From Butyricicoccus sp. Marseille-Q5471 (lineage in GTDB: Bacteria; Bacillota; Clostridia; Oscillospirales; Butyricicoccaceae): a DNA stretch of 64,000 bases. The notes under the pieces were generated by a model that saw nothing but the letters and a program-made list of their open reading frames with translations, was not told where the DNA came from and ran no database searches. The position numbers were made by a program, and so were the translations under genes. Position 1 is the first letter of the stretch, and each line of letters starts with the position of its first letter. Positions 4,745 to 39,451 of this stretch are shown piece after piece. The stretch is from assembly GCF_951230135.1 (NCBI RefSeq), contig NZ_CATNVC010000006.1:78865-142864 (forward strand). Reading direction: 5' to 3'.

Positions 4745-5336
4745 ATTTTGCACCTCCTTGGTTTTGACTTCCTTTGTTTTTTCTTAATGGCACAAATATA
4801 GGGACCGCACTGCTGTGATTGCTTCCACGGGCAGAACGGTCCCCATCGCTTCTGACATTAAGTCTTTTTTCTATAATAACGGTGCTTAATTCGACACTAC
4901 TCCCCAAGCACTCTGTACAGAGCATATGGTGCTTTGCACAATAAAGGCGACGGCCTGAACTGCGGCTGGCTTCACCGCATCATGGGAATCTCACCCCCGC
5001 CAGGATCTCTGCCGGCTGCCCTCATTGCGTGATTCCCCGGTCAGGGGGGCTGTGACTGGACAGAAGTATCAATATAGGCTGACGGAGTCATTGCGAGACA
5101 GGCTGCCACAGCCTGTTTTCCGGTCGGATGGGTACCGCTCTGCACCTTATTTGGCCGTCTTTGATAGGAGCAGAAAGAAACGAGCGAATAAAAAAATAAG
5201 TGATTTCACTTTTCTTGCTGCCTGCCTACAGGTGGTCTTGGCGCATCCTCCGGGGTCGCTTTTCCCTTTCAGGGTCCATCAGCTAATGTATTCAGGTCAT
5301 CGGATATGAAATTTTCAAAGTACGATTGGGGGAATG
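4745..5336. other. Intergenic stretch of the element without a recognised gene
   Basis: About 590 bases separate the sigma-factor terminator from the MazF-like gene. Open frames here (for example 5025-5309 plus, 4671-4925 minus) have no recognisable domain, no convincing ribosome site, or overlap mazF. The mazF promoter and possibly decayed element sequence are expected here. Confidence 0.4.
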
Positions 5337-5392: not shown

Positions 5393-5812
5393 TTACTTTT
5401 CCATCATTTTTTTTAGCTTCAGCCGAATCTGACGGTCCCGATAGCTGATGGTCTGCTGCTTGATTCCGGTTTCTCTCTCCAGCTCCATCTGCGTTTTTCC
5501 TTGATAATACAGGGCAAAAATCAGATTCTGTTCATCTTTGGAAAGTTGTGCTATGCATTGACGGAGCCGCTGTGACATGAGTTTGTCCACTACCATATCC
5601 TCCACACGGGGCGAAAGCAAATCAGGGATTGCATCCTCACCGTTGGTTTCCTCCGTATCCAAGGCACTATAATAAAACACACCATGTGCTGTGTCTTTTT
5701 CCTCCAGATGTAGTTCACGGCGCTTCATGCGGTAATAGGTTAGATAGATTTCCTCGGTGACAGGGACGAGCTGCCCCTGCACCTTGATTCGATATTCCTT
5801 CTTTTCTGCCAT
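5393..5812 (-). CDS. Small sigma-70-like factor of the mobile element
   Basis: 139 residues. The C-terminal third (QCIAQLSKDEQNLIFALYY then KTQMELERETGIKQQTISYR) is a sigma region 4 helix-turn-helix; the N-terminal part with YLTYYRMKRRELHLEEKD is the conserved head of the short sigma-like proteins of Tn1549-type elements, thought to direct transcription of element genes. Start ATG at 5812 has GGAGGACAAGCCAT before it; an upstream in-frame codon is rejected. No region 2 is evident, so it may act as a regulator rather than a full sigma factor. Confidence 0.85.
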   Translation of the reverse strand: MAEKKEYRIKVQGQLVPVTEEIYLTYYRMKRRELHLEEKDTAHGVFYYSALDTEETNGEDAIPDLLSPRVEDMVVDKLMSQRLRQCIAQLSKDEQNLIFALYYQGKTQMELERETGIKQQTISYRDRQIRLKLKKMMEK

Positions 5813-5970
5813 ATGGCTTGTCCTCCATTTTCTGAGATTTTGATGGTGAGTCAAAATGTCAGAAACGGAGGAGAACGGCAGCGTGGGTTCGACACGCTTA
5901 TATATAAAACAACTCCTAAATTCCCTCCTTTTGGAAAATTCAGTCGTTGTATCAGTTTTCTTGTCGAAAG

Positions 5971-6013: not shown

Positions 6014-6328
6014 AGAATAGAATTATGAAATTGTCCGAGTAAAAGGTGATATGTACAGATTGCGCCGTCTTTAGTTCCACCTCCTATAAAAGGGAATGCA
6101 GATAATGCCCATACGGATACCCCCCTTCACCACGGCGCATAGCGAAAGCCGGTATCCTGATACCCCAAAAAGCCATAAAAGATGGCAAGGGCCTGCCCTC
6201 TTGGGAGAGGGCAGACCCTTTGCGGTTTTGGCAGCCAGACTATCATAGCGCATAAGCGCCTTAGATCCTCAGCTTTGCGTCCCCGGCTTTTGCCGGGTTT
6301 GCCCTTGGCCGTATTTATTTTGTAGCCA
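6014..6328. other. Gene-poor stretch with GC-rich inverted repeats
   Basis: No supported gene. It contains the inverted repeat GGGCCTGCCCTCTT / GGGAGAGGGCAGACCC at 6190-6222 and a GCGTCCCCGGCTTTTGCCGGG hairpin region near 6278-6300. Probably decayed element sequence. Confidence 0.35.
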
Positions 6329-31731: not shown

Positions 31732-32856
31732 TCATTTCCTTAGTTTTTCACAAAGTTCCTCTGCCCCGGCCGACTGCGCGAGCAGTCCGTACCGACTCGT
31801 GAACATAATATACTGAATATTGGCTCTGCCACGCAGACGCAGACGCAGTTTTTGCTCAATCGCCGCAGCGATGTGCTGCATGACCGGCTCACGCAGTCCG
31901 GCTTCGTCCAGAATTGCAATGCATGCATCGACCGAAATCGCCTGCATCAGCTGCTCGAGCACTGGCTTCGATGCACCGCAGAGAGCGGCATGGGCGGTAA
32001 ATACCTCCTGCCTACCGTCTGCAACCGACGAATGCGTATTCATCACCCCCGCCGCAAGCTTAACCAGTTTGCCTGCATGTCCGACCAGCAGAATCTCGGG
32101 AAATCCCTTCCACGCCGCATAATCCAATGCGTCTCCGATAAAATTGGAGCACTTGACCGCCTGTTCCAAATCCAGACCCAGTGTATCTCGTCCAAAATCC
32201 GCGCCGTAGTTTCCCGGGCACAAAAACGCAATGCGCTGCCCCTGCGCCAGCAGGCTGTCCAGCTCCAGATGTGTGGTTTCCATCAGTGCTGCCTCGCTCA
32301 TCGGCTCGACAATGCCGCTTGTCCCAAGGATTGAAATACCGCCCAACACGCCAAGATGCGCGTTATACGTTTGCTCTGCAATGGCTTCTCCGTTTTCAGC
32401 CGAAATTGTCACAGCAAATCCGCCCGGATAGCCGCAGCCTGCCGCCGCCGCTTCGAGCGCTGCGATAATCTGTGCGCGAGGTCCGGGATTGATTGCCGCT
32501 TTGCCGACCGCACAGGCCAAACCCGGCTTGGTCACACGTCCCACGCCCGTACCTCCTGCAATCTCAATTCCCGACGGTCTTTTTTCCACCCGCGCAAAAA
32601 TGCGAATGCCGTTGGTCACGTCCGGATCGTCACCGCTATCCTTGCGAATCGCGCAGACAGCCGCATCCTGCTCCAAGCAGGTCTGCTCCGGCGTCAGCGA
32701 AAGCGCCACGCCGGAAGGCGTGATATGCCGTACCTCTTGCGGCGCCTTCCCCGTCAGCAGCAGCAGTGCTGCGGCCTGTGCCGCCGCTGCCGCGCAGGTG
32801 CCGGTTGTATAGCCCCGCCGCATTTCGCTTTGATTTCGGTATACCAATTGTCCCAT
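31732..32856 (-). CDS. cbiD: Cobalt-precorrin-5B C1-methyltransferase
   Basis: 374 residues: RRGYTTGTCAAAAAQAAALL at the N-terminus, DDPDVTNGIRIFARV, GGTGVGRVTKPGLACAVG, AINPGPRAQI, GGISILGTSGIVEPMSE, CPGNYGADFGRDTLG, LLVGHAGKLVKLAAGVMNTH. ATG at 32856 has AAAGGCGG about 8 bases upstream. It opens the long biosynthetic part, after two hairpins that follow cbiN. Confidence 0.95.
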   Translation of the reverse strand: MGQLVYRNQSEMRRGYTTGTCAAAAAQAAALLLLTGKAPQEVRHITPSGVALSLTPEQTCLEQDAAVCAIRKDSGDDPDVTNGIRIFARVEKRPSGIEIAGGTGVGRVTKPGLACAVGKAAINPGPRAQIIAALEAAAAGCGYPGGFAVTISAENGEAIAEQTYNAHLGVLGGISILGTSGIVEPMSEAALMETTHLELDSLLAQGQRIAFLCPGNYGADFGRDTLGLDLEQAVKCSNFIGDALDYAAWKGFPEILLVGHAGKLVKLAAGVMNTHSSVADGRQEVFTAHAALCGASKPVLEQLMQAISVDACIAILDEAGLREPVMQHIAAAIEQKLRLRLRGRANIQYIMFTSRYGLLAQSAGAEELCEKLRK

Positions 32857-32886
32857 CAAATTTTCCGCCTTTCCGCACGACGTAGG

Positions 32887-32910
32887 CAAAAAGGAATGCG
32901 CCGCCATTCC
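32887..32910 (-). terminator. Second intra-operon hairpin, before cbiD
   Basis: On the minus strand GGAATG / CATTCC around loop GCGGCG, followed by TTTTTG. Short stem; it may stop part of the transcription that escapes the preceding hairpin. Confidence 0.5.
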
Positions 32911-32978: not shown

Positions 32979-33329
32979 TTATGTATGCGAATGCGAAACC
33001 TTTTTGCTTGTGCCGGCCGTCTCATTTTCAATCTTCTTGCGCTCGACAAAACGCCCGAGAAGGAACGCGATTACACCCACACCAATGCCGGTCTGCACGC
33101 AGAACAGCAGACTCTCCAGTTCACCCGGAAGCTCGGCGCCGAACATTTGCTCAAACACGGGCGTAAACCACGGCTCATATTCTGTGCCGGTGACCTCTGC
33201 GACCATTTCGCTGCCCGCACCGTCCGATCCACCGAACTCCGCGCCGCGCAGCGCGAACACAGGCGCTACAATAAGAACCGCACAAAGCAGAAGCAGTATA
33301 ATGACAGTGGTCTTATTCTTTTTGGTCAT
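32979..33329 (-). CDS. cbiN: Cobalt ECF transporter, auxiliary membrane subunit CbiN
   Basis: 116 residues, two membrane helices (about 8-26 and 73-91) with a loop rich in Gly and acidic residues (RGAEFGGSDGAGSEM, TEYEPWFTPVF), as in CbiN. It assists CbiM in loading Co2+. The C-terminal His-Ser-His may add metal contacts. It follows cbiM by three bases. Confidence 0.9.
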   Translation of the reverse strand: MTKKNKTTVIILLLLCAVLIVAPVFALRGAEFGGSDGAGSEMVAEVTGTEYEPWFTPVFEQMFGAELPGELESLLFCVQTGIGVGVIAFLLGRFVERKKIENETAGTSKKVSHSHT

Positions 33330-33332
33330 AGC

Positions 33333-34076
33333 TTACACCTCCTCAAAGCCGAGCGACCGCAGTTCAGGACGCGCATAGGATTCGAGCGCAATCATGATGA
33401 CAACGGTCAAAATGCCTTCAACAATGGCCAGCGGCAGCTGCGTCGGCGCAAACACGCCGAGGAATTTGGCCGCCGAAACCGCCACGCCGCCATCGGGCGA
33501 CGGATATGCAACCGCAAGCTGCAGGCTGGTCACACAGTAGGTAAACAAATCGCCGAGCGTTGCCGCAGCAAAAACGCTGACCATTTTATTCACCTTCAGC
33601 TTTTGCAGCAGCTTGTAAATACCGAAGGATACGAACGGACCTGCAATTGCCATCGAAAAGGTATTTGCACCAAGCGTGGTCAGGCCGCCGTGCGCAAGCA
33701 TAATGGCCTGAAACAGCAGGACGATTACGCCGAGAATGGAAACTGCCGACGGGCCAAACAGCAGTGCGCCCAGACCGGTGCCTGTCATGTGGGAACACGA
33801 ACCGGTGACCGAGGGGATTTTGAGCGACGAAATCACGAAAATGAATGCACCTGCCATTGCCAGCAGCGTGATTGCTTTACGATCACGCGTGAGCGTCTTC
33901 TTGATTGAGAAAAAGCCTGCGATCAGAAACGGCAGCGCCAACACACCCCAGATTGCACACCACCTGGGCGACAGATAGCCCTCCATAATGTGCATGGCGC
34001 CTGCTGCCGGCAGAGTCCCGGCTATCAGCGCAAACGATGCCGCAAGGCTTACAATCTTCTTTTGTTTGCTTGTCAT
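33333..34076 (-). CDS. cbiM: Cobalt ECF transporter, substrate-binding subunit CbiM
   Basis: 247 residues. A signal-like N-terminus ends at [13 protein letters not shown], whose exposed Met-His-Ile-Met-Glu-Gly is the Co2+-binding head after cleavage; further [39 protein letters not shown], and six or seven helices. ATG at 34076 follows AGGAG; longer frames run into the riboswitch region. First gene behind the cobalamin riboswitch. Confidence 0.95.
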
Positions 34077-34240
34077 AAATATTTCTCCTTTCTTCCCCAA
34101 AGCATGGGGCATAAAAAAACACCGTGCCCGTGTGATTCCCACTCACCGGACCGGCGTTCAGTGCGCTTCTCCCGCCCCAAAAGGACGAAAGAAGCGACTC
34201 CTGCACACCGGTCATCTCTCGTAACCGTCATGCACTTCCA
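34077..34240 (-). promoter_or_regulatory. Leader between riboswitch and cbiM (probable expression platform)
   Basis: About 160 bases on the minus strand between the aptamer and the cbiM start hold GC-rich inverted repeats, including CCGGTGA / TCACACGG around 34132-34151, and a run of seven T (34113-34119) before the ribosome site. A B12-dependent terminator or ribosome-site mask probably forms here, but I could not resolve the alternative folds. Confidence 0.45.
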
Positions 34241-34242
34241 TC

Positions 34243-34420
34243 CAAAAAGGCAGGTCTTCTGGCTTGGGCCTCATTGTCCTCAGCCGGTCTTCCCAGTATC
34301 AACCAGTGACCATGTAATTGGCGTCGGACTCTTCCCTTACAGCGGCGGGACCGCAGGGGCATCGCACCCCTTTCCCTATTATCCTGCGGAGAAAAAGCAG
34401 GAACCTTTTTATATCCTCAG
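34243..34420 (-). ncRNA. Cobalamin riboswitch
   Basis: On the minus strand the leader carries the B12 box AGCCAGAAGACCTGCC (34264-34249) and, before it, the conserved core elements GGGAA...GGGGTGCGATGCCCC, GCTGTAAGGGAAG and CACTGGTTGATACTGGGAAG in the right order. These are the hallmarks of the adenosylcobalamin aptamer. When B12 is bound, expression of cbiM and the genes after it should fall. Confidence 0.95.
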
Positions 34421-34455
34421 GCGGCAAAATGCCTCCTTCGGAAGAAGTTATCTCT

Positions 34456-34484
34456 ATTATAAACTCTGCCCAATGCACTGTCAA
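34456..34484 (-). promoter_or_regulatory. Promoter of the cbiM-to-cbiK operon
   Basis: Perfect TTGACA (34484-34479) and TATAAT (34461-34456) with a 17-base spacer on the minus strand, 30 bases after the cbiO stop. Transcription should begin near 34449, just before the riboswitch. Confidence 0.85.
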
Positions 34485-34513: not shown

Positions 34514-35353
34514 CTAATCCACCCGATGATTTTCCAAAAGCCGCTCCAATTCGACCGGCGTTTTCGGACAGGCCGCGTCGCGCGGCACCAAGCCTCTGCG
34601 CGACAGGCTTTCAAAGACATCAAGCATGGCAGGACGACGCAGACGTGCGCGCTCTATGATTTCGTCATCCCGGAACACATTGAGCGGTGTGCCGTCCGCG
34701 ATCACTTCCCCTTCGCAGAACACGACCGCGCGGTCGGCCCATCGAAAGGCAAAATCCATATCGTGCGTCGAAATGAGCAGCGTTTTCCCTTCCTCCGTCA
34801 AACGCCGCAGCACGTCCTCCAGCATGCATGTGCCCGCGGGATCGAGCGAAGCCGCCGGTTCGTCAAACAAAATCACCTCTGACTCCATTGCGATGATATC
34901 CGCAATGGAAACCCGCTTTTTTTCACCGCCCGACAGATAATGCGGCGGGCGCGTGCGAAACGCCTCGAGCGCCATATAGTCGACAGCGCGGTCCACTCTC
35001 CGGCGCACTTCCTCCTTGGGCAATCGCAGGTTCATCGGGCCAAAGGAAACCTCGGCCTGCACGGTCGATGCAATAATCTGATCATCCGCATTTTGAAATA
35101 CGATGCCGACATGCTCACGCAGCAAATTGCGTTCTTTTGCACCAACCTCTCTGCCGTGCAGCGATACAGTTCCGCCCTGCGGAGTCAGCACACCGTTCAG
35201 GCACAGAAAGAATGTGGATTTACCCGCGCCGTTCGAGCCGAGCACGGCAACGCGTTCGCCCGCACGCACCGCAAGTGACGCATGCTGCAGCGCATATTTT
35301 TCTCCGTCATAGGCATAGCGCAGACCTTGTGTCTGCAAAATATACTCTTCCAT
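34514..35353 (-). CDS. cbiO: Cobalt ECF transporter ATPase CbiO
   Basis: 279 residues, ABC ATPase energising the T-component. Walker A GSNGAGKSTFF, Q-loop IVFQNADDQIIAST, signature LSGGEKKRVSIA, Walker B VILFDEPAASLDPAG, His switch ISTHDMDFA. Starts 11 bases after the EamA/CbiQ fusion with AGGGAGG before the ATG. The C-terminal tail of about 50 residues is longer than the bare ATPase. It belongs to the csoR transcription unit, not to the riboswitch unit. Confidence 0.95.
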   Translation of the reverse strand: MEEYILQTQGLRYAYDGEKYALQHASLAVRAGERVAVLGSNGAGKSTFFLCLNGVLTPQGGTVSLHGREVGAKERNLLREHVGIVFQNADDQIIASTVQAEVSFGPMNLRLPKEEVRRRVDRAVDYMALEAFRTRPPHYLSGGEKKRVSIADIIAMESEVILFDEPAASLDPAGTCMLEDVLRRLTEEGKTLLISTHDMDFAFRWADRAVVFCEGEVIADGTPLNVFRDDEIIERARLRRPAMLDVFESLSRRGLVPRDAACPKTPVELERLLENHRVD

Positions 35354-35364
35354 TCATATCCTCC

Positions 35365-37023
35365 CTAGATTAGCCACAGCACGATCAATGCACCCCAAAA
35401 CGCAGCCACTGCCAGTATCTGATGACGCTGCAGCGGCTTGTCCTCCTCCAAGAATCCGAGTGAACCGTCATAGCAGCGTGAAAGCATCGCGTCATAATAA
35501 ACGCCCGATTTGCGCAGCGCAACCACAAGCAGATTGCCCGCCGAACCGCCGAACGAGCGAATCGACGTGCGAAAATCCCGATAGCCCATCCGTGACTCTG
35601 CGGCATCGTGCATACGGCTGTGTGCGTCAAGCAGGATGAAAATGAATCGGTAAATCAGGTACATGAGTTCGGTCAGCAAAGCGGGCAGCTTTGCGCGGCG
35701 CAGCACGCCGACCAATTCACTCGCCGGCGTCGAAAGTGCCAGCAGATACATGGCGCTGACCGCGCCGAGAGCCTTGAGTGTGAGCAGCAGCGCAAAGCGC
35801 AGACTCTCTCCGGTTATGCAGACATAAAACCAGCGCAGCGACAGATTCCAGTCCCCAATCGGCTGCGCGGAAAGATCGCAGGCGACCGCAATGCCGCTCA
35901 CCAACAGAAAAAACAGCGGGATACGCAGCATGGATAAGTACGCGTGCAGTTCCAATCCGCCCTTGTATACGATGAGGCTTGCGCAAACCAGAATCACCGC
36001 TACGGATACCAACGGGTCGTTCGCCGCGATGCAGAGGATGAGCGTTCCGACCGAAAGCAATACTTTAAACGTCGGATTCCAGCGATTCATGCCCGAGGTG
36101 TATGCAAAATAATCAATCGACCGTACGCCCGCATGACTGTGTGCACCATCGGCCGAAGCATAATACACGCCGAGCGCCATGACCGCCAACGCCAGCCAAT
36201 ACAGTCCGTCCGGTTTCTCCCGCAGCAGCACGAGCGAAAGCGCACTACCAAGAAACGGTGCGATTGCATAGAACGCACCGGTCTTGGCCGCGCCAAGCGT
36301 GCGCTGCGCACGGATATAAAAATAAATACTCAGTCCGTAGGCGGCAAATCCCAGGCACAGTCCGTATAGCAGAATACCGGCAGTCGGCAAGCGTTCTCCC
36401 AGTGCAAACGCAATCAGCAGCGAGCCGGTGCCCGAACACAAGCCCTTGACCACCACAATCTCAAGCGGATCTTTATGGGACAGCTTGCGTGTGCAATTGT
36501 TTTCCAATCCCCAGCAAATGCAGGCTCCGAGCACAAACAGCGAACCCGCCGAAAAGTTCATGCTTCCTCCGATATCCTCGCAGGACAGCAACACACTTGC
36601 CGCGGTGACCAACCCAATGGCACACCACAACCGGCGCGATACCGCTTCATGGAATAGGGTCAGCGCAATCAGCGCAGTGGCAACAATTTCAAAGTTGTTG
36701 AGCAACGCCGCATTGGCAGCGGTTGTTCGTGACAGACCGCACAGCAGCAGAATCGGTGCAGCGATATCCAACACAATCATTGCGATTGTATAAGGCAAAT
36801 CTTCGCGCGTAAGCGGCTGTTCTCGCCCCTCGTGCCCGCTTGCGCGGCGCAGACCGCCAATCAGCATGAGTCCCAGTCCCGCACCCAGATACAGCAGCGC
36901 CGCCAACACGGTCGGCTGCACGCCGCCCAACAGCAGCTTGGAGCCGGGCACGCTCAGTGCATACAGCGCGGCGGCCAGTACTGCACACAGAATTGCACCG
37001 CTCGGGTGTTTTTTATCTTCCAT
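35365..37023 (-). CDS. EamA drug/metabolite transporter fused to CbiQ (cobalt ECF T-component)
   Basis: 552 residues in one frame without a break. Residues about 8-290 are a whole ten-helix EamA/DMT transporter with two repeats (ALYALSVPGSKLLLGG, LCGLSRTTAANAALLNNFE, then FYIRAQRTLGAAKTGAFYAI, APFLGSALSLVLLREKPDG). Residues about 305-552 are CbiQ: SIDYFAYTSGMNRWNP, LALSTPASELVGVLRRAKLP, LTELMYLIYRFIFILLDAH, SRMGYRDFRTSIRSFGG, and YYDAMLSRCYDG in place of the usual AxxARGY coupling motif. ATG at 37023 follows AGGTGA; a GTG at 37032 is possible. The DMT half might carry metal or a chelate; this is unknown. Confidence 0.9.
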   Translation of the reverse strand: MEDKKHPSGAILCAVLAAALYALSVPGSKLLLGGVQPTVLAALLYLGAGLGLMLIGGLRRASGHEGREQPLTREDLPYTIAMIVLDIAAPILLLCGLSRTTAANAALLNNFEIVATALIALTLFHEAVSRRLWCAIGLVTAASVLLSCEDIGGSMNFSAGSLFVLGACICWGLENNCTRKLSHKDPLEIVVVKGLCSGTGSLLIAFALGERLPTAGILLYGLCLGFAAYGLSIYFYIRAQRTLGAAKTGAFYAIAPFLGSALSLVLLREKPDGLYWLALAVMALGVYYASADGAHSHAGVRSIDYFAYTSGMNRWNPTFKVLLSVGTLILCIAANDPLVSVAVILVCASLIVYKGGLELHAYLSMLRIPLFFLLVSGIAVACDLSAQPIGDWNLSLRWFYVCITGESLRFALLLTLKALGAVSAMYLLALSTPASELVGVLRRAKLPALLTELMYLIYRFIFILLDAHSRMHDAAESRMGYRDFRTSIRSFGGSAGNLLVVALRKSGVYYDAMLSRCYDGSLGFLEEDKPLQRHQILAVAAFWGALIVLWLI

Positions 37024-37032
37024 GCGCTTCAC

Positions 37033-37302
37033 CTACTTTACGAACCGCGTCACCGCTGTTTCCAAATCATCCAGTGCCTGCTGATCGCCGTTTTCCACCG
37101 CTTCGGTCACACAGTGCTGAATATGGTCAAGCAGGATGATACGCCCCACATTGTTAACGGCAGTGCGCACGGCAGCAATCTGAATCAGCACCTCGCTGCA
37201 ATCACGGTCGTCCTCCACCATGCGGCGAATCGCCTCCAAGTGTCCGATTGCCCGACCCAGACGGTCAAGCACCTTCTTTTTCTCGGTGTGATGATGCTCC
37301 AT
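37033..37302 (-). CDS. CsoR/RcnR-family metal-sensing repressor
   Basis: 89 residues, all-helical DUF156 fold: LDRLGRAIGHLEAIRRMVED, CSEVLIQIAAVRTAVNNVG, LLDHIQHCV. The ligand positions Cys35, His60 and Cys64 follow the copper CsoR pattern, but the N-terminus is MEHHH with a His at position 3 as in the cobalt/nickel sensor RcnR. The next genes are the CbiQ fusion and cbiO, so cobalt is the likely signal. ATG at 37302 with GGAAGGA upstream; a longer frame would run through the operator. Confidence 0.9.
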   Translation of the reverse strand: MEHHHTEKKKVLDRLGRAIGHLEAIRRMVEDDRDCSEVLIQIAAVRTAVNNVGRIILLDHIQHCVTEAVENGDQQALDDLETAVTRFVK

Positions 37303-37319
37303 CTTTACGCGTCCTTCCC

Positions 37320-37336
37320 ATCCCCCGGTAGGGGAT
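37320..37336 (-). promoter_or_regulatory. CsoR/RcnR-type operator
   Basis: ATCCCC-CGGTA-GGGGAT, a perfect 6-bp inverted repeat with G/C tracts as in known operators of this family. It lies just after the -10 box, over the expected start of transcription, 18 bases before the repressor's ATG, and so fits autorepression. Confidence 0.8.
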
Positions 37337-37342
37337 ATTTTC

Positions 37343-37371
37343 ATTCTATCTCAGTGCATCCCACTTGTCAA
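37343..37371 (-). promoter_or_regulatory. Promoter of csoR-eamA/cbiQ-cbiO
   Basis: TTGACA (37371-37366) and TAGAAT (37348-37343) with a 17-base spacer on the minus strand. Confidence 0.85.
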
Positions 37372-37504
37372 CCGAAGTTGATACAGCCGAAACAAAAGTG
37401 CGAAAATTGTCAAACCAGTGATAAGCGCCGAATAGATACTGCTATACATTTCCGCCCGTATATCGTATAATAAAAGCAGAAATTTTACCTTGGAGGAACC
37501 CGCC

Positions 37505-38803
37505 ATGCAACCAGCCTGCATTCAATTGCCCCGCCTGCTCCTGCCTGCCGACCGGGCGACGCTGAGCCACTGGGCCGTGATCGCTTGCGACCAGTTCACC
37601 GCCGAACCCTCCTACTGGGCGCAAATCGAAGCATTGGTCGGCACAGATCCATCATGTCTGCGCCTGACACTGCCCGAAGTCTATTTGTCTGCGGATGATA
37701 CCCCCCGTATCACGGCGATTCACCAAACGATGGACACCTATTTGTCCGCCGGACTGCTGCAGGAACTGGATGACGGTCTCATGCTGATTGAGCGGGACTG
37801 CGACCGTGGAAGTCCGCGCCGCGGGGTGCTGCTGGCCTTCGATCTTGATACTTACGACGAGCGCCCGGGTGCCCGGACTCCGATTCGTCCGACCGAATCT
37901 ACCGTGACTGAACGCGTGCCCGCTCGCCTAGCCATCCGCGCGCAGGCTCCGTTTGAGCTGCCGCATATTTTGCTGTTTGTAGACGATCCCGCACACACTT
38001 TGCTGGAACCGCTCTTTTCTGCGTGCGCAGATATGCCGGTTTGCTATGATTTTACGCTGATGCAGGGCGGCGGACACATCAAAAGCCGCTTTGTGCCGAT
38101 CGGCGATGCTGTTGACGCATTTCTTACCCGTTTGTCTGAACATGCTGCGCCGGAAGCCTGCCGCGCCCGCTATGGTTTTTCGGAAAACCAAGCACCGCTC
38201 GTCTTTGCCACCGGAGACGGCAATCACTCAATGGCGGCAGCCAAGGCCCATTGGGAGCAAGTCAAACGTGGGTTGACCGCCGAGCAGGCGCTGACTCACC
38301 CCGCTCGCTTTGTGCTGGCAGAGTTGGTCAATTTACAGGATGAAAGCATCTGCTTTGAGGCGGTACACCGTTTGCTGCTGAACGTCCACGCGGACGATGC
38401 CCTCGCGTTTCTGTGTGCCTATTTCAGCAGTGCAGGTTTATCCTGCTCGCTGGATGGACATGCAAAACCCAAAACGCTCCTGCTGCCCTTCTATACGCAG
38501 GGACGCAGCGGTGCGCTGTCGATATCCGGCGCAGAGGATGCGCTGCCTGTGGCACTGCTGCAAGAGGCAATAGATGCCTTTCTCCGCGCTCGCCCAGAGG
38601 TGCAGATTGATTTTATCCATGGTACCGATACGCTGCTGGCACTGTCCGATGCGCCCGCACGACTTGGATTTCTCCTACCCGATTTTGGCAAGGATTTGCT
38701 GTTTCCCTATGTTCTGAACCATGGCGTACTACCGCGTAAAACCTTTTCGATGGGAACTGCACTGGAGAAGCGCTATTACCTGGAAGGGCGCATGATTCGG
38801 TAA
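37505..38803 (+). CDS. DUF1015 family protein
   Basis: 432 residues. The family, of unknown function, is cytosolic and widespread in anaerobes. Family features: HWAVIACDQFTAEPSYWAQI near the start, EVYLSADDTPRI, FATGDGNHSMAAAKAHWEQ with a conserved GDGNHS, ALTHPARFVLAELVNLQD, and a C-terminal LPDFGKDLLFPYVLNHGVLP, PRKTFSMGTALEKRYYLEGR. ATG at 37505 follows TTGGAGGAACCCGCC. A TATAAT box stands at 37466, with only a weak -35. It is divergent from csoR and followed by a terminator. Confidence 0.88.
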   Translation: MQPACIQLPRLLLPADRATLSHWAVIACDQFTAEPSYWAQIEALVGTDPSCLRLTLPEVYLSADDTPRITAIHQTMDTYLSAGLLQELDDGLMLIERDCDRGSPRRGVLLAFDLDTYDERPGARTPIRPTESTVTERVPARLAIRAQAPFELPHILLFVDDPAHTLLEPLFSACADMPVCYDFTLMQGGGHIKSRFVPIGDAVDAFLTRLSEHAAPEACRARYGFSENQAPLVFATGDGNHSMAAAKAHWEQVKRGLTAEQALTHPARFVLAELVNLQDESICFEAVHRLLLNVHADDALAFLCAYFSSAGLSCSLDGHAKPKTLLLPFYTQGRSGALSISGAEDALPVALLQEAIDAFLRARPEVQIDFIHGTDTLLALSDAPARLGFLLPDFGKDLLFPYVLNHGVLPRKTFSMGTALEKRYYLEGRMIR

Positions 38804-38908: not shown

Positions 38909-39451
38909 ATGAACCTCTGTCTTGATTTGTTTCTCACCTTTGCACGAATCGGCGTCTGCACTTTTGGCGGCGGCTATGCGATGCTTCCCATTCTCCAACG
39001 TGAAGTCGTAGATCGGCGCGGGTGGGCAACCGAAACCGAGCTCATGGATTATTACGCCATCGGCCAGTGTACCCCCGGTGTCATCGCGGTGAATACTGCG
39101 ACCTTTGTCGGCTACAAAATCCGAGGGATTGCCGGTGCAATCTGTGCCACGGCCGGGATTGTATTTCCGTCGCTCGTGATTATCACGATAATTGCTGCCT
39201 TCGTGCAGCAGTTTGCTCACATGGTCGTCGTGCAGCATGCATTTTCCGGTGTACGCGTCGCAGTGTGCGCCCTCGTTTTGCATTCGGTATATCAGATGGC
39301 GAAAAAGGGCGTTGTCGATCGAATCACTGCAGCTATTCTTCTGGTGACCTTCCTCGCTGTCGCCTTTTTTGGTGTTTCGCCTGTGCTGATGCTCGTGCTC
39401 GCAGCCGCATCCGGTGTGTTTTCCCAAATGCTAAAGGAGCGGAACAAATGA
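38909..39451 (+). CDS. Chromate transporter, first half (ChrA domain)
   Basis: 180 residues, one CHR domain with six hydrophobic segments: FARIGVCTFGGGYAMLPILQ, ELMDYYAIGQCTPGVIAVNT, ATFVGYKIRGIAGAICATAG. Two half-size proteins together make the transporter in this group; substrates may be chromate or another oxyanion. ATG at 38909 has GAAAGGAG; its stop overlaps the second gene (ATGA). Confidence 0.92.
   Translation: MNLCLDLFLTFARIGVCTFGGGYAMLPILQREVVDRRGWATETELMDYYAIGQCTPGVIAVNTATFVGYKIRGIAGAICATAGIVFPSLVIITIIAAFVQQFAHMVVVQHAFSGVRVAVCALVLHSVYQMAKKGVVDRITAAILLVTFLAVAFFGVSPVLMLVLAAASGVFSQMLKERNK

Follow-up and report, generated by a model that had tools for sequence, protein, structure and literature searches.

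A drug/metabolite transporter fused to the cobalt ECF component CbiQ in Butyricicoccus sp. Marseille-Q5471, encoded behind a likely metal-sensing repressor gene

Among the closest described systems are the CbiMNQO cobalt importer, represented by the CbiQ of CbiMQO (PDB 5x3x), the DMT/EamA carriers (YddG-type 5i20 and LicB 7paf), the repressor-transporter pairs InrS-nrsD and RcnR-rcnA, and the EamA-family protein CntI. According to the accessible part of PMC7689651, cobalt importers are regulated through a cobalt-derived product, adenosylcobalamin for example, and sensors of the CsoR/RcnR family are repressors that are released from DNA by metal and typically guard exporters. A 2009 survey gave CbtAB to CbtX as candidate cobalt transporters, the word "fusion" being absent from its main text (PMC2667541), and an EamA protein was tied to choline in the available portion of PMC12155760. 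In the literature within reach, with most subscription papers lying outside it, no description of an EamA-CbiQ pairing with cobalt was found, nor any work tying EamA to cobalamin riboswitches, nor, judged by titles, any on csoR-linked EamA carriers.

The DNA analysed here (the window) is a stretch of 64,000 nucleotides from Butyricicoccus sp. Marseille-Q5471 (contig NZ_CATNVC010000006.1, positions 78,865 to 142,864). The features of the locus listed below are all on its minus strand and are given in the direction of reading, with profile scores and their cutoffs in bits.

37343..37371 (-): promoter-like site for the operon led by csoR, TTGACA-17-TAGAAT (11 of 12), recognised by consensus only
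37320..37336 (-): candidate CsoR-type operator ATCCCCTACCGGGGGAT, a palindrome match between the -10 and the csoR start
37033..37302 (-): InrS-like metal sensor of the CsoR/RcnR family (PF02583, 94.6; cutoff 22.8)
35365..37023 (-): DMT::CbiQ fusion, 552 aa, one frame
36142..37023 (-): DMT half (two EamA repeats), residues 1-294, from profile matches and a model
36121..36159 (-): His-containing junction ASADGAHSHAGVR, residues 289-301
35365..36141 (-): CbiQ half, residues 295-552, and stop, from profile matches and fold
34514..35353 (-): cbiO, ECF ATPase (TIGR01166, 219.4; cutoff 211.8)
34456..34484 (-): second promoter-like site, TTGACA-17-TATAAT (12 of 12), preceding the riboswitch, recognised by consensus only
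34232..34423 (-): cobalamin riboswitch between cbiO and cbiM (RF00174, 118.2)
33333..34142 (-): cbiM, cobalt S component (TIGR00123, 282.1; cutoff 184.15)
32979..33329 (-): cbiN (PF02553, 75.9; cutoff 25)
31732..32907 (-): cbiD, the first downstream B12-synthesis gene (TIGR00312, 398; cutoff 200)

The locus resembles the CbiMNQO importer in the score of its CbiQ above the cutoff of the CbiQ model, in the fold of that half and in the adjacent cbiO, cbiM and cbiN; here, however, the T-component carries a whole DMT at its N-terminus, and cbiQO lies behind a CsoR-type site. The DMT half differs from the YddG-type and LicB carriers in a signature of its own (D86, N110-x-E112, CWGxENNCT and K193), in the csoR partner or His-rich tail of many of its relatives, and in the fusion to CbiQ. 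As with InrS-nrsD and RcnR-rcnA, there is a CsoR/RcnR repressor with the W-X-Y-Z residues of InrS, a palindrome at its own promoter and an adjoining transporter, but the transporter is a DMT and cbiQO comes next in the same predicted transcription unit. CntI, which reportedly exports pseudopaline, is likewise an EamA-family protein in metal biology, whereas no metallophore-synthesis gene was found among the 18 neighbour genes scanned here (8 of the window and 10 of relatives).

The fused gene was read as a single frame holding two EamA halves and a complete CbiQ. The EamA repeats were matched in two stretches at 90.5 bits (cutoff 28.2), and the half that they cover is predicted by modelling to take the ten-helix DMT fold. 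The CbiQ half matched the equivalog TIGR02454 at 151.9 bits (cutoff 111.8) over the full model (1-200) and has the CbiQ fold. When the fusion was compared with Pfam at E-values up to 0.01, EamA and CbiQ were the only matches, and none to RcnA, CDF, P1B ATPase or RND was obtained. The original prediction, that one unbroken 552-residue frame joins a complete ten-helix DMT to a complete CbiQ with neither stop nor frameshift at the junction, is borne out by the agreement of profiles, fold and frame, and the fusion is confirmed as genuine, with both domains complete. A sequencing or frame error at the junction was ruled out by the clean frame and by the existence of other fused clusters, described below. 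The prediction had also called the coupling motif of CbiQ altered (AMLSRCYDG). As a sign of specialisation this had to be abandoned: RCY is read in 68 of 120 standalone CbiQs and is ordinary.

At the junction, in-frame ATG, GTG and TTG codons are absent between codons 286 and 312, the former a GTG within the last helix of the DMT and the latter already in the beginning of CbiQ, and internal initiation releasing a separate CbiQ is therefore unlikely. End to end, the fusion reads ASADG-AHSHAGVRSID. A standalone csoR-linked DMT (locus L083) terminates in ASTDG, and the standalone CbiQs of the family start with a short His-containing stretch followed by GVRSID; at least two His lie within the first 30 residues in 97 of 120 standalone CbiQs. 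Some standalone CbiQs are about 300 residues long. One of these, P0222, can be read as having an additional hydrophobic segment at its N-terminus together with a stretch rich in His; at the loci L183, L185, L187 and L192 the match to the fusion profile starts in the region of the last DMT helix (262-271).

The genes around the fusion are closely spaced, with 9 bp between csoR and the fused gene and 11 bp between the stop of the latter and the start of cbiO. The cbiM product is the only PF01891 match of the genome, and the cbiN product scored below the cutoffs of the NCBIfam CbiN models. A riboswitch between cbiO and cbiM is usual: of the family's short loci, 15 were scanned and all 15 have it, and the exact operator is present in none of them. 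Since no terminator-like site was found on the same strand between cbiO and the riboswitch, transcription may read through. Three CbiQ-family proteins of the genome passed the Pfam cutoff. The gene of the second adjoins one for an ECF ATPase; this protein shares 26% identity with the fusion and scored 96.1 bits against the equivalog cutoff of 111.8, and the third had no NCBIfam match at 1e-10, which leaves the fused CbiQ as the only T-component above that cutoff. With one CbiM in the genome and the other T-components below the equivalog cutoff, the fused CbiQ is, judged by these scores, very likely the sole partner of CbiMN.

The start of csoR was set at the ATG of M15 (the longest frame is 37033-37344), and the order on this side is the promoter-like site, at once ATCCCCTACCGGGGGAT, and then the csoR start. 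Promoter-like sites of such quality numbered 6 in the 3.6 kb scanned, against 1.9 expected. The palindrome matches ATCCCC-N5-GGGGAT exactly, as no other site in the 2.94 Mb genome does, and at up to one mismatch the operator is expected 0.05 times per window. The repressor scored below the NCBIfam cutoffs for RicR (58.2 against 175 bits), FrmR (53.1 against 133) and RcnR (41.9 against 138), by which it is a member of the CsoR/RcnR family and none of these three. Its best solved relative was InrS (E 1.4e-18), in a near tie with 6ahx, a putative cytosolic protein (E 3.8e-18), and its W-X-Y-Z residues H17/C49/H74/C78 were aligned on H21/C53/H78/C82 of InrS. In relatives these were kept in 20 of 23 (H17), 23 of 24 (C49), 25 of 30 (H74) and 30 of 31 (C78) csoR rows, only rows with a residue at the site being counted out of 34, some of which are truncated or misread. 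The accessible part of PMC4235346 reports that InrS requires C53, H78 and C82 to bind Ni(II), H21 being non-essential, that copper CsoR likewise has a Cys-His-Cys ligand set, and that second-shell residues predict the metal better than ligands do. Residue 48, beside the Cys, is Asp in the window repressor versus Tyr in the copper CsoRs 4m1p and 2hh7. Because the residues align with those of a Ni(II) sensor and an Asp stands next to the Cys, the predicted metal is likely divalent, although copper CsoR has the same ligand set and one copper CsoR, 7mq1, also has Asp at position 48.

Legible in the DNA itself are the fusion, the order csoR-DMT::cbiQ-cbiO, a palindrome at the promoter-like site of csoR, and a riboswitch that separates cbiO from cbiM-cbiN. 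With the carrier and CbiQ encoded by one gene, directly behind that of a likely metal-sensing repressor, the importer's engine and what is likely its safety valve would be produced as a single chain. The reading tentatively preferred here is that the ten-helix DMT is a Co2+/Ni2+ exporter fused to CbiQ, in one predicted operon behind the InrS-like repressor and ahead of cbiO. Binding of metal to the repressor would free the operator, and the valve and the energising module (CbiQ and CbiO) would then be made when cobalt or nickel is present, while CbiM and CbiN, the substrate-binding part, would, to go by the sites, be made only when B12 is low. With both units on, CbiQ would drive cobalt import; when B12 is ample, CbiMN would fall away and the DMT half would keep exporting surplus metal, the His-containing junction keeping the valve close to the site of Co2+ entry into the cytoplasm. 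Least secure in this scheme are the direction in which the DMT transports and the identity of its substrate as the free ion. The suggestion made in the original prediction of a second path, import plus export, is favoured to this extent, with regulatory and family evidence added to it and with its substrate and direction presumptive.

The evidence from the family was collected at 166 distinct loci of DMT relatives, excluding the window, which were picked by similarity to the query and not at random. A CsoR-family gene was found directly upstream on the same strand at 38 of them, and within 120 bp before these csoR genes the operator ATCCCC-N5-GGGGAT was exact in 24 of 38 and present with at most one mismatch in 34 of 38. 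Every one of the 28 exact operator sites in the 1.375 Mb of DMT loci precedes a DMT start, at a distance of 10-471 bp; for 24 the distance is 275-357 bp, where the csoR promoter lies. A looser search for any C/G-tract palindrome gave 31 of 44 rows, among which there are duplicates and the window itself appears three times; with shuffled sequence the figure was 12 of 880. Four loci (L076, L078, L088 and L133) carry the operator, with at most one mismatch, within 250 bp before the DMT and had no csoR directly upstream, which suggests control from elsewhere.

A C-terminal tail with at least 8 His was present in 65 of 146 unique DMT relatives, for instance 23 His in 65 residues in the DMT of L141; the last 45 residues hold 0-3 His in each of the six remaining EamA proteins encoded by the genome of the window. 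Only 7 of the 146 combine a His tail with csoR, and the two therefore look like alternative metal features. Among 223 non-redundant DMT sequences, the fusion included, D86, E112, E174, N175, N176, T178 and K193 were kept in at least 222, and N110, C170 and C177 in 96-98%; in the model they are placed on the helices 73-97, 102-122, 159-180 and 186-207 and may bind metal. The csoR partners, the operator and the His tails link the DMT family to metal; the direction and substrate of its transport we infer. The family itself was matched at 432 places in one genome scan.

Several observations stand against the exporter reading. The solved DMTs that match in structure move organic molecules (choline in LicB, and nucleotide sugars). 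There is no csoR directly upstream at 128 of the 166 loci, tails are shorter than 20 residues in 72 of the 146 relatives, and the two metal features are combined in so few. A metal-induced promoter before cbiQO is odd for an importer, and the sensed metal might be copper, given the Cys-His-Cys set of copper CsoR and the Asp48 of 7mq1. At 80 named DMT loci, no relative of cbiQ, cbiM, cbiN or cbiD was detected within up to 8 kb on each side, and the cobalt link is therefore confined to few lineages. Finally, in another genome of family f79, a His-tailed DMT follows genes for hydroxyethylthiazole kinase and phosphomethylpyrimidine kinase (L206:3914-7927), a thiamine context that does not fit a metal-only story.

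The cobalt context of unfused DMTs was found in family f79, where the order cbiQ-cbiO-cbiM-cbiN-DMT occurs on one strand, with a His-tailed DMT, in four of the 18 genomes that had at least two matches there (L198 in G994, L199 in G1001, L200 in G1002 and L201 in G995). Two of the four, L199 and L200, were scanned, and in both a cobalamin riboswitch heads the unit, with a precorrin-6A reductase gene between it and the cbi genes. Such riboswitch-led DMT operons fit an import-side role equally well, because cobalt importers are the B12-controlled class (in the part of PMC7689651 available), and this bears on a different reading, in which the DMT half is a second, secondary-active entry for Co2+ or a cobalt chelate, so that the protein would serve two import paths. 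The last place of the unfused DMT in the import operons of L199 and L200 speaks for it, as does LicB, an importer among the nearest solved folds. It is nevertheless considered quite unlikely, given that repressors of the CsoR/RcnR type are released by metal and typically guard exporters, as already cited, and that csoR is directly upstream in the window as well as at 38 of the 166 relatives.

Other features were recorded near the unfused DMTs. At the 60 DMT loci scanned with gathering scores, no NiCo or cobalamin riboswitch was found directly before a DMT, and the sole cobalamin riboswitch, at L150, lies downstream of the DMT. Past the DMT of L199, a second cobalamin riboswitch (5629-5826) stands ahead of genes that include a FecCD permease. 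Genes of metal or oxyanion ABC systems lie near the DMT in f79 genomes, namely ZnuA (L200:11527-12528), SBP_bac_11 with a permease (L201:11654-13278) and an ABC-3 permease (L182:622-1443). An azaaromatic (yjdF) riboswitch (L186:3707-3807, -) and a guanidine-I riboswitch (L161:3117-3212, +) were located in DMT flanks, neither directly before the DMT.

Two further readings keep an export or pumping role for the DMT half and change its substrate or its energy source. In the first, it would export a metal-binding small molecule in the manner of CntI, and the ECF importer would be unrelated to the return of that molecule. Pseudopaline, CntI and EamA are named together in the literature, but the lack of a metallophore-synthesis enzyme in the 8 window genes and the 10 neighbour genes of relatives scanned, together with the long His tails, which fit a free ion better, makes this decidedly improbable. 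In the second, which the original prediction had raised, the DMT would borrow the ECF ATPase (CbiO via CbiQ) and become an ATP-driven pump. Apart from the covalent link to the T-component nothing was found for this. CbiM, the normal partner of CbiQ, is present, and the flanks of the 80 named loci hold no cbiQ, cbiM or cbiN relative, so that the DMT ordinarily works without this ECF module; the pump is barely credible.

The spread of the fusion was determined by a search of about 5.8 billion proteins, as the original prediction had proposed for the two-domain architecture. Ten fused clusters were found among the matches listed (the best 120 of 5059): the window's own (14 members) plus nine more that share 49-62% identity with it, one of these bearing the name Butyricicoccus sp. 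The hits listed after the ten are DMTs alone, and a profile search gave the same ten fused clusters and no other among its best 120. Seven whole-genome profile scans were also performed, covering 87 genomes of the family, 394 of the order, 391 of the class, 398 of the phylum, 68 of one genus, and 194 and 40 from two other families of the class. The sets overlap (1,572 entries, with genome ids up to at least G1404), and up to three candidates per genome were scored in the order, class and phylum scans. In these seven scans of 40-398 genomes, the fusion was found in the window's own genome only. Of 24 genomes of the same genus, 18 matched the CbiQ half only and 6 had no match. In the 16 same-genus loci that were read, cbiQ is followed by cbiO in each, and csoR and DMT were not seen within up to about 1.5 kb on either side of cbiQ. 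Fused genes are rare, and close relatives are no exception to this. The possibility that close relatives all have two separate genes, which was to count against the fusion, thus came out in between: the 16 loci have cbiQ-cbiO without a DMT seen beside it, rather than both halves as separate neighbours, and other fused proteins exist.

In the tree of CbiQ halves, fused and standalone proteins are interspersed (9 changes, of which starred branches force at least 4), and a single clade of fused halves was rejected (p-AU 0.0005). In the tree of DMT halves they occupy at least two places (4 changes, 2 forced), and a single clade was rejected narrowly (p-AU 0.040) in a test in which the bootstrap had not settled and FUS_P0005 formed a long branch. 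P0007-P0009 stand apart from P0001-P0006 and P0010 in both trees. One origin of all fusions is rejected in this way for the CbiQ halves and only narrowly for the DMT halves, and fusion, or splitting, therefore took place more than once; repeated fusion and an old fusion with repeated splitting both fit the trees.

These results also bear on whether the halves act together at all. They might act independently, two neighbouring genes of a metal operon having merged into a state that is tolerated and involves no joint mechanism. The junction itself contributes next to nothing, as the standalone ends (ASTDG, and the His stretch with GVRSID) are the same letters that meet in the fusion, and the rarity of the fused form among close relatives points the same way. 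However, the ten fused clusters do not form one clade in either half, and the unfused DMT is also associated with a cobalt operon, so that the pairing itself looks selected, and independent halves appear unlikely.

On the preferred reading, that of an exporter joined to the import module, a wider proposal can be put forward, although it is less likely than not, namely that the DMTs form a hitherto undescribed subfamily that is the Co2+/Ni2+ exporter class of many Clostridia, held under InrS-like repressors acting on ATCCCC-N5-GGGGAT or under B12 riboswitches, and welded to CbiQ in at least two lineages as a two-way cobalt machine with a metal-induced engine and a B12-repressed cobalt-binding part. 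What the fusion reveals concerns the DMT family more than CbiQ. It is a Rosetta-stone hint to the substrate of that family, and the fused gene, the operator and the unfused relatives form a directly testable set. If the DMT half exports cobalt or nickel, the energy module of an importer would be joined physically to an exit valve of its own, and a very large, mostly unassigned carrier superfamily would gain a metal-exporting branch in gut Clostridia, which, if true, would be the larger discovery.

Some minor features of the window were recorded as well. A gene for a DUF1015 protein (37490-38803, +) is divergent from csoR, and the candidate operator lies within their common intergenic region. 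Beyond it, a half-gene of the chromate transporter family is found at 38909-39451 (+), and the next frame looks like its partner. Two RNA elements were located on the minus strand, a c-di-GMP-I riboswitch at 6227-6313 (83.1 bits) and a pemK RNA motif at 4980-5075 (67.1 bits).
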